DNA of 64,000 bases, taken from NCBI RefSeq assembly GCF_004212635.1, contig NZ_PSRT01000010.1, positions 1 to 64,000 on the forward strand, in the 5' to 3' direction. Every line of letters begins with the position of its first letter. Position 1 is the first letter of the stretch. Position numbers and translations under genes: made by a program. The DNA comes from Bradyrhizobium genosp. SA-3. GTDB taxonomy: Bacteria > Pseudomonadota > Alphaproteobacteria > Rhizobiales > Xanthobacteraceae. The notes below the pieces were generated by a model, which searched no databases, had not been told where the DNA came from, and worked only from the letters and a program-made list of their open reading frames with translations. Positions 48,927 through 50,155 of this stretch are shown in pieces.

Positions 48927-49952
48927 TTACGCCATCACCCGCTGCGGCAAGAGTTCGGCGATCTGCACGGCGTTGAGCGCCGCGCCCTTGAGCAGCTGAT
49001 CCGCCGCAACGAACATCGAGATCGAATGCCCTGAGGGATCGCTGAGATCCTTGCGGATGCGGCCGACCAGGACGTCGTCCTGACCCGAGGCGTCGATCGG
49101 CATCGGGAAGTAGTTCTTGGCGCGATCATCGACCACCTTGACGCCGGGCGCCTGCGCCATGATGGCGCGGACCTGGTCCTCGCTGATCGGCTTCTCGCAT
49201 TCGAAGGTGATGGCCTCGCAATGGGCGCGCAGCACCGGCACGCGCACGCAGGTGACGCCGACTGCGATGGTTTCGTCCTCGAAAATCTTGCGGGTCTCCT
49301 TGATGACCTTGGTCTCCTCGTCGTTGTAGCCGGTGTCAGGATCGACCGCCGTGTTGTGGTTGAAGAGGTTGAAGGCGTAGGGGTGCGGCATCACCCTGGG
49401 CGTATAGACCTGCCCGTTGAGATTGGCGCGGGTGGATTCGACGAGCTCCTCCATCGCCGCGGCGCCGGCGCCGGAGGCCGCCTGATAGGTCGAGATGATG
49501 ACGCGCTTGATGCGGTTCTTCTGGTGGATCGGCCACAGCGGCACCAGCGCGGTGATCGCGGCGCAGTTCGGGTTGGCGATGATGCCCTTGTGATCGCGGA
49601 TACGGTTCGCGTTGATCTCGGGGATCACTAGCGGCACGTTCGGGTCCATGCGGAAGGCGGAAGAGTTGTCGACCACGACCGCGCCGGCTTTGACCGCGAT
49701 CGGCGCGAACTTCTTCGAGATGCTGCCGCCGGCGGAGAACAGGGCGATGTCGACGCCCTCGAAGGCTCGCTCGGTCAATTCCTCGATGACGACCTCTTGC
49801 CCGCGGAACGACACCGTCTTGCCGGCCGAGCGGGCGCTCGCCAGCGCCTTGAGCTTACCGGTGCGAAAGCCGCGCTTGTCCATGGTGGCGATGAATTCGG
49901 CGCCCACCGCACCGGTGACGCCGACAATCGCGACGACGGGATCGTTACTCAC
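48927..49952 (-). CDS. asd: Aspartate-semialdehyde dehydrogenase
   Basis: 341-residue NADPH-dependent enzyme reducing aspartyl phosphate to the semialdehyde, the branch point to lysine/diaminopimelate, threonine, methionine and isoleucine. NADP motif VGVTGAVGAEFI, catalytic Cys in ANPNCAAITALVPL, and YQAASGAGAAAMEEL are intact. The start is most likely GTG 49952, because GGAGG lies at the right distance; the upstream ATG 49964 is itself part of that GGAGG context and has no site of its own. A terminator and a threonine-rich leader frame lie just upstream, suggesting attenuation. Confidence 0.96.
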   Translation of the reverse strand: MSNDPVVAIVGVTGAVGAEFIATMDKRGFRTGKLKALASARSAGKTVSFRGQEVVIEELTERAFEGVDIALFSAGGSISKKFAPIAVKAGAVVVDNSSAFRMDPNVPLVIPEINANRIRDHKGIIANPNCAAITALVPLWPIHQKNRIKRVIISTYQAASGAGAAAMEELVESTRANLNGQVYTPRVMPHPYAFNLFNHNTAVDPDTGYNDEETKVIKETRKIFEDETIAVGVTCVRVPVLRAHCEAITFECEKPISEDQVRAIMAQAPGVKVVDDRAKNYFPMPIDASGQDDVLVGRIRKDLSDPSGHSISMFVAADQLLKGAALNAVQIAELLPQRVMA

Positions 49953-49984
49953 TTTGTCCTCCATTACATTGGGAATTAGGCAAC

Positions 49985-50016
49985 AAAAAAGCCCCGGACC
50001 ATCGAGGGCGGGGCTT
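49985..50016 (-). terminator. Intrinsic terminator in the asd leader (candidate attenuator)
   Basis: On the minus strand AAGCCCCG pairs with CGGGGCTT (8 bp) around a 14-base loop, followed directly by TTTTTTGTTG. It ends about 20 bases upstream of asd and is transcribed in the same direction as asd, not as the end of another gene on that strand. The position suits conditional read-through. Confidence 0.8.
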
Positions 50017-50046
50017 CGGTAGAGCTGATGCGTTTAAGTCGACGAC

Positions 50047-50118
50047 CTACGCGCGCACGCCTCCCCGGGCCCCGAAGGCCGTGGTGGTTTTGGTCGTGCG
50101 TTTCGTAGTCGTGAACAT
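50047..50118 (-). CDS. Threonine-rich leader peptide of the asd attenuator (candidate)
   Basis: A 23-codon frame, ATG 50118 to TAG 50047. It begins MFTTTKRTTKTTT, with eight Thr in the first 13 residues (ACG, ACT and ACC codons), then AFGARGGVRA. There is no ribosome-binding site, but the ATG is 8 bases after a -10-like hexamer, so the transcript may start at the AUG, as in the leaderless trpL of rhizobia. The codons for Thr3-5 (50104-50112) can pair over nine base pairs, with one bulge, with 50043-50052, which contains the stop codon. A terminator follows 30 bases later. Predicted role: ribosome stalling at low threonyl-tRNA prevents termination before asd. Confidence 0.7.
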   Translation of the reverse strand: MFTTTKRTTKTTTAFGARGGVRA

Positions 50119-50126
50119 GGGGGCGA

Positions 50127-50155
50127 CTTATGCGGGAGAGTCTTGCAGCCGTCAA
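50127..50155 (-). promoter_or_regulatory. Sigma-70-like promoter of the asd leader
   Basis: TTGACG (50155-50150) and CATAAG (50132-50127) are separated by exactly 17 bases on the minus strand. The predicted start is at or next to the leader ATG (50118). The -10 is imperfect. Confidence 0.55.

Follow-up and report, generated by a model that had tools for sequence, protein, structure and literature searches.

A predicted transcription attenuator with threonine and lysine codons ahead of a second asd gene in Bradyrhizobium

The second copy of asd in Bradyrhizobium genosp. SA-3 is preceded by a conserved element that, judging from its modelled folds and its conservation, is very probably a ribosome-mediated attenuator of asd transcription, and one that probably senses charged tRNA-Thr and tRNA-Lys. 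In the window, by which we mean the whole stretch of 64,000 nucleotides analysed (NZ_PSRT01000010.1, positions 1 to 64,000), promoter, leader ORF, terminator and asd follow one another on the minus strand between 50155 and 49950 (Table 1). The elements, their conservation and the predicted switch were all computed. An initial annotation of this DNA had described a promoter, an ATG, a 23-codon Thr-rich frame, a terminator and a GGAGG ahead of asd, and every one of these is present in the sequence; the attenuator reading that it gave them is supported by computation, namely by folding, controls and conservation. Its claim that the device senses threonine holds in part: the attenuator and the Thr codons are borne out, but the signal is probably not threonine alone, given that Lys AAA codons are conserved and that Lys10 is a predicted stall codon.

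Results

Layout of the region upstream of asd

The leader carries 8 Thr within residues 1-13, and 8 Thr and 2 Lys in its 23 codons as a whole. Its stop lies 30 nt from the terminator, and the T run lies 33 nt from the asd start, which is probably the GTG at 49952 rather than the in-frame ATG at 49964, because the GGAGGA precedes the GTG. The GGAGGA lies partly within this ATG, and divergent relatives do not conserve the residues ahead of the V encoded by the GTG. The upstream neighbour on the same strand is a 200-aa ORF, with the leader and terminator between it and asd. Terminators between two genes of the same strand are common, and with such an ORF upstream the hairpin might merely end upstream transcription, asd having its own start downstream and the leader ORF being a chance frame; we regard this as highly improbable, as the asd start follows the T run after a gap of just 33 nt and as the promoter spacing, the ORF, its Thr/Lys codons and the antiterminator complementarity are conserved across divergent leaders.

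Table 1. Features of the asd upstream region in the window, and leader-like ORFs elsewhere in the same genome
Feature	Position	Strand	Basis or remark
asd, second copy in the genome	48927..49952	minus	NCBIfam TIGR01296 asd_B, 408.6 bits against a cut-off of 324.2
Promoter TTGACG / 17-nt spacer / CATAAG	50155-50150 / - / 50132-50127	minus	sequence
Promoter, whole element	50127..50155	minus	sequence and conserved distance to ATG
Leader ATG	50118-50116	minus	8 nt beyond the -10 box
Leader ORF MFTTTKRTTKTTTAFGARGGVRA	50047-50118	minus	23 codons and TAG, no Shine-Dalgarno
Region 1, Thr codons 3-5, 5' strand of helix P1	50104..50112	minus	fold of leader
Lys10 AAA - Thr11 ACC, predicted sensing codons	50086..50091	minus	stall scan and conservation
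Antiterminator 5' arm, CGGGGC (50074-50069) and CGGGGAG (50067-50061)	50061..50074	minus	codons 15-20
Antiterminator inner helix, GUGCG (50058-50054) with CGCAU (50032-50028)	50028..50058	minus	RNAalifold consensus
Stop-codon region, 3' partner of P1	50042..50051	minus	fold of leader
Shared strand CTCTACCGAAGCCCCG	50009..50024	minus	pairs with antiterminator arm; alternatively, the terminator 5' arm is made from its 3' part
Intrinsic terminator, 8-bp stem and T6	49985..50016	minus	sequence
Terminator 5' arm AAGCCCCG / 3' arm CGGGGCTT	50016-50009 / 49996-49989	minus	
T6 run of terminator	49990-49985	minus	
GGAGGA ribosome site of asd	49962-49957	minus	ahead of GTG 49952
Leader-like ORF of MIKSVRTVNFMHMTRFGWAVGGVAR type	G000:C85:30930-31065 (L164)	minus	also L336, L337, L338, L340, L342, L343
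Leader-like ORF MITKSCALVSKKGPHPGTSECCAR and terminator	G000:C17:55861-55991 (L163)	minus	before DapA/NanA superfamily gene

From the position of the promoter, transcription would be expected to start at about 50120-50118, on the leader ATG or 1-2 nt ahead of it. Among 130 distinct upstream regions, TTGAC begins exactly 37 nt upstream of the ATG in 116 and a -10-like element lies 14 nt upstream of it in 111. An SD-like 4-mer precedes the leader ATG in 1 of the 130, and asd itself in 153 of 154 loci by a loose test spanning 45 nt around the start. This layout predicts a transcript start 0-2 nt before the AUG; the ribosome would enter without a Shine-Dalgarno sequence. In B. japonicum, 192 transcription start sites have been reported to fall exactly on annotated start codons (PMC4842269); asd is absent from the main text of that study.

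Distribution and conservation

The genome carries another copy of asd (at G000:C170) that is 46% identical to the one in the window. When this ordinary asd was used as a query, 286 of 297 genomes sampled across the order gave a match at E <= 1e-60, and with the window-type asd 10 of the 297, from 2 of 122 genera, gave a match at E <= 1e-95. The asd behind the predicted attenuator is thus the extra copy. Of the 80 named loci with the window-type asd, 79 are titled Bradyrhizobium or Bradyrhizobiaceae and one is labelled Frankia sp. RB7.

A leader ORF (ATG, 21-24 codons) and a terminator are found in all 154 loci that were read with a window-type asd, made up of the 80 named loci, 30 best-scoring others, 40 divergent picks from the genus and 4 from a search of the family. 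Some genomes were reached by two routes, and the set contains 122 distinct leaders. The genus search covered 117 genomes, 70 of which contributed loci outside the 80 named. The comparison of asd upstream regions that had been proposed as a check on the device finds the leader ORF and the terminator both kept in 154/154 loci. These belong to Bradyrhizobium and to one other genus of the family (G189, leader MITTTQRATTKTPFRAEESARV). Each distinct leader has 3-9 Thr and 1-4 Lys, or 6-11 of the two together, and the terminator stem is nearly invariant, with five of its six G-C pairs in 53/53 aligned rows and the sixth as G-C in 52 and G-U in 1. Searched against its own genome, a covariance model of the element returns the leader at E 9e-34, the next match having only E 0.003.

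Five genomes of the genus (G032, G041, G048, G053 and G097, the last only 75% complete) gave no high-scoring window-type asd, and they carry an ordinary asd without a Thr/Lys leader. In a member of another family, G344, the leader MVARHTTKRTVKTTACAGVSTGAWPVAAT precedes a window-type asd that is 62% identical, and its hairpin is without a U run. Both G344 and G189 carry the two types of asd, with a leader before the window type and none before the ordinary type.

In the Bradyrhizobium genome G091 (93% complete), the leader and terminator are kept at G091:C617:4277-4405 (L356) and neither type of asd was matched; this is a relic or an assembly gap.

Weak matches to the covariance model were inspected in 28 cases, a set that leaves out others, among them those in G032 and G053. 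They include the asd leader of G344 and two other leader-like ORFs, and the remainder are, by appearance, ordinary gene-end terminators or chance matches. One leader-like ORF recurs in Bradyrhizobium (e.g. MIKSVRTVNFMHMTRFGWAVGGVAR), where it is followed by a GGCCCCGCC...GACGGGGCC terminator and then by a small ORF whose product we take to be reminiscent of DUF1127 proteins. Another, MITKSCALVSKKGPHPGTSECCAR, stands before a gene of the DapA/NanA superfamily (Table 1), of which the tested stretch scored below all curated cut-offs.

A predicted terminator/antiterminator switch

In the fold of the window leader, Thr codons 3-5 pair with the region around the stop (helix P1), as the initial annotation had suggested. 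It had been less sure of an antiterminator between CGGGGC and GCCCCG; when a ribosome is modelled as stalled at codon 11 and the RNA ends at the terminator 5' arm, CGGGGC (50074-50069) does pair with GCCCCG (50014-50009). In such RNA, before the terminator 3' arm is made, the first 15 released bases take up at least 3 of the 6 GCCCCG bases in 122/122 distinct leaders and at least 4 in 121. The inner helix GUGCG:CGCAU is paired in 96.6% of cells. The two pairings of the shared strand are mutually exclusive. By ensemble folding, the probability of the terminator is 0.9999 in the untranslated window leader and 0.9999 with a ribosome at the stop; with a ribosome stalled at codon 11 it is 0.003 and that of the antiterminator 0.996. 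The full-length RNA of the window leader is thus predicted to switch as an attenuator should, and in this model the stalled ribosome releases an antiterminator that excludes the terminator.

When equilibrium folding is extended to the 122 leaders, 118 favour the terminator if untranslated and all 122 do so with the ribosome at the stop; for a stall at codon 11, 81 favour the antiterminator and 41 keep to the terminator. The stalled switch works in 65/71 leaders of the window's type (those with a GA[RWG]G[GR]V ending) and in 16/51 others, the terminator being preferred despite the stall in 6/71 window-type leaders vs 35/51 of the others, and the equilibrium switch as modelled is therefore weak in the more divergent leaders.

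We scanned the position of the stall along the window leader. Antitermination is confined to stalls at codons 10 and 11, each with an antiterminator probability of at least 0.99, when the ribosome edge is set 14 nt from the A-site codon, although the effective stall positions depend on the assumed edge (codons 11-12 at +11, codons 9-10 at +17). Across the 108 leaders of 23 codons, the mean probability of the terminator is 0.29 for a stall at codon 10 and 0.33 at codon 11, compared with 0.68-0.86 before these codons and 0.99-1.0 after them. In the window the terminator stays favoured for stalls at Thr3-Thr9 and at Thr12-Thr13, and most of the Thr codons are consequently unexplained by the equilibrium model.

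Controls on the fold

Full switching, taken as each state above 0.9, was reached by 0/300 dinucleotide shuffles and by 7/300 synonymous recodings of the window leader. We also recoded codons 15-23 of 27 leaders chosen for diversity. In 18 of them at most 10 of 200 synonymous recodings gave an antiterminator hairpin as stable as the native one (median rank 4); for the pairing probability of the terminator strand the effect was weaker, with 8/27 leaders at rank 10 or better and a median of 19 of 200. In 26 non-redundant leaders the native arms of P1 pair better than arms swapped between leaders (Wilcoxon p = 0.006), and the native antiterminator arms pair no better than swapped ones (p = 0.91). 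Over 53 leaders, 0 antiterminator pairs have a two-sided compensatory change. This is expected if the shared strand cannot vary, but the pairing is then not proved by covariation, and the antiterminator rests on its conserved complementarity, the recoding test and the switch model. The overall fold energy of the leader is unremarkable (z -1.45).

The recoding results bear on whether the conservation reflects, besides or instead of attenuation, a leader peptide or a short terminated leader RNA that acts in trans. The peptide is conserved up to its last residues (GVRA), G091 keeps the leader without any asd match, and both peTrpL and rnTrpL are reported to act in trans in Sinorhizobium (PMC7298713). 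Residues 16-19 nevertheless vary among leaders (GARG, GGSG, GASG, RASG) while the complementarity to the terminator arm stays, and the codons used for them give a stabler hairpin than most synonymous choices; we find a role in trans improbable as the explanation and return to attenuation.

Threonine and lysine codons

The distinct leaders of 23 codons number 108. All of them have AAA as codon 6, and 107 have it as codon 10, the one leader without Lys10 (L118) having Thr there. Thr11 is present in 108, Thr5 and Thr8 in 104, and Thr3, 4, 9, 12 and 13 are less often kept than Thr5 and Thr8. Lys10 and Thr11 are the predicted stall codons, and so the codons singled out by the model are among the most conserved. 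The remaining 14 leaders have other lengths; among these, Thr occupies the position of Lys10 in L113 and L114, and G189 has Gln for Lys6. AAA is a rare codon here: six long window ORFs use it 8 times and AAG 68 times. Codon 13 lies past the predicted stall sites, and of the 14 distinct ORFs that have Lys there 12 use AAG; we treat this as an internal control, and it was also counted against our best explanation.

A second body of evidence on lysine comes from the ordinary asd genes of Rhizobiales. We sampled 89 loci (L199-L288), 30 of them best-scoring and 59 picked for spread, and selected leaders on Thr only (at least 4 Thr in 12 residues of a short ORF), which gave 64. The leader of L208 was dropped, as 33/60 shuffles reached its Thr+Lys score. 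The remaining 63 leaders, e.g. MTKTATTKTTTT or LAKKTTKTTTKTV, represent 17 families. No such leader was found in the 9 Bradyrhizobium loci, in the 4 loci of family f50 or in either other genus of family f1 (L208 being counted as none), so that outside these groups 63/74 loci have one; five further Bradyrhizobium loci of ordinary asd are also without a Thr/Lys leader, which makes 14/14 in all. Lys is present in 63 of the 64 Thr-selected segments, the exception being L208, and makes up 36.5% of their non-Thr residues, compared with 7% in the asd proteins of 30 loci. In control Thr-rich short ORFs, which come mostly from Bradyrhizobium DNA, Lys is found in 55/344 segments and makes up 2.4% of the non-Thr residues. 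The ratio of AAA to AAG is 134:35 in the leaders of ordinary asd, 50:603 in asd genes and 25:40 in the control ORFs. The bias of leaders against asd genes corresponds to an odds ratio of 46, among related sequences for which a p value means little.

The same attenuator could sense threonine only, the Lys codons being incidental or serving to keep the region unstructured. Thr and Ile are the amino acids sensed by the classical thr leader, no residue is more frequent in the leaders here than Thr (up to 9 per leader), and Thr takes position 10 in three of them (L113, L114 and L118). Against this, most Thr codons vary more than Lys codons 6 and 10, which in 23-codon leaders are always the rare AAA when they encode Lys, Lys10 is a predicted stall codon, and the independent asd leaders are enriched in Lys relative to the control ORFs by the percentages above. 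We consider threonine alone unlikely and, given that the element is an attenuator, take the signal to be probably threonine plus lysine.

Leaders of ordinary asd and their output

The leaders of ordinary asd end near their last sensing codon, with the last Thr or Lys at most 5 codons from the stop in 63/63 leaders and at most 1 codon in 48. A terminator was detected in 4/64, and most of 20 that were inspected have no clear T run. The output at ordinary asd is hence probably not intrinsic termination. The leader stop is followed by a C/U-rich stretch that could pair with the asd ribosome site, to which it is complementary; native pairs had no significant advantage over pairs swapped between families (p = 0.20 for the 63 leaders, p = 0.057 for the 17 family means). 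Outside Rhizobiales, 3 of 45 alphaproteobacterial loci (L299, L304, L327) have such a leader. The window leader is like these SEP5-like leaders of Rhizobiales in being a short Thr/Lys-rich ORF directly before asd.

Discussion

From this layout and its predicted folds we infer the start site, the translation of the leader, the sensing of tRNA and the effect on asd as follows. Transcription would begin at or beside the leader AUG, and a ribosome would enter without a Shine-Dalgarno sequence. While threonine and lysine are plentiful, the ribosome would reach the UAG and cover the antiterminator region, GAAGCCCCG would be free to pair with CGGGGCUU, and RNA polymerase would stop before asd. A shortage of one or the other would make the ribosome stall around codons 9-12 (Thr9-Lys10-Thr11-Thr12), breaking the helix between the Thr codons and the stop region and freeing CGGGGC (codons 15-17) to capture GCCCCG; no terminator would then form and asd would be transcribed. 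Termination is predicted for untranslated RNA as well, since helix P1 forms and would keep the antiterminator arm away.

A wider reading, which we hold to be evenly poised between true and false, is that asd in Rhizobiales is governed by a widespread leader sensor for threonine and lysine that uses the rare AAA codon. The sensor would have been kept while two things changed: the gene it serves, which is either ordinary asd or, as in Bradyrhizobium, G189 and G344, the second asd; and its output, a terminator in Bradyrhizobium and probably control of asd translation elsewhere. The leaders are short, and the two types of asd are only about 46% identical.

The thrL leader of E. coli has a Shine-Dalgarno sequence and Thr/Ile codons and precedes thrABC. 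The asd leader shares with it a Thr-rich peptide, the sensing of charged tRNA and transcription termination (both predicted here) and a place in the aspartate-family pathway; unlike thrL it has no SD, carries Thr/Lys codons and precedes asd. No Rfam family, Thr_leader included, matched at the gathering score, either in the window or in any of 20 related loci. In lactic acid bacteria asd is preceded by an RNA element, the asd RNA motif. We know of no Thr/Lys leader ORF in that motif or in the attenuator-like sequence of Streptococcus mutans asd. The latter is known to us as a title cited in PMC2864571, and both are RNA elements before asd, as here, in a different phylum.

The rhizobial trpL (rnTrpL) is described as a leaderless attenuator, from which the trans-acting peTrpL and rnTrpL are reported in Sinorhizobium (PMC7298713). 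In common with the asd leader it has a leaderless ORF and competing terminator and antiterminator (both predicted for asd), a codon run, and a biosynthetic gene downstream; it differs in having Trp codons before trpE(G), whereas the asd leader has Thr and Lys codons before asd. The closest precedent by description is SEP5 of Sinorhizobium (PMC10117765), which contains six Thr codons and three Lys codons and lies in the 5'-UTR of a gene named as 'aspartate dehydrogenase'; our comparison is with that description. SEP5 is translated according to Ribo-seq and Western blots, was called possibly a leader peptide, and was reported as conserved only in Sinorhizobium; in what we saw of that paper a leader role is suggested and no RNA switch proposed. 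Like the asd leader it is an ORF with Thr and Lys codons in a 5'-UTR. The Rhizobiales leaders found here precede the other type of asd, end near the last Thr or Lys codon and are mostly without a detectable terminator.

The initial annotation knew of no such device for asd, and this stands for Bradyrhizobium, where we found no asd attenuator in the literature covered, but has to be qualified by SEP5 (PMC10117765). Besides SEP5, that search, with key surveys outside its scope, found no Thr/Lys attenuator of asd in Rhizobiales, and the main texts of PMC5082802, PMC4842269, PMC1273637, PMC2965389, PMC4117421, PMC4833913 and PMC2864571 contain no such statement. Ribosome-mediated attenuation is in itself a classical mechanism, and trpL shows that rhizobia have leaderless forms of it (PMC7298713). 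New, as far as searched, are the full switch predicted for Bradyrhizobium, its position before a second asd, the evidence for lysine and the distribution across the order.

The product of asd forms the final intermediate shared by the routes to lysine (and to cell-wall diaminopimelate), threonine and methionine. If the proposed mechanism is true, one leader that stalls on threonine or lysine would couple supply to demand at this branch point without a repressor. The same sensor with two outputs and two types of asd would then be a natural experiment in attenuator evolution, and the strong preference for AAA makes testable the idea that leaders pick the codons most sensitive to starvation.
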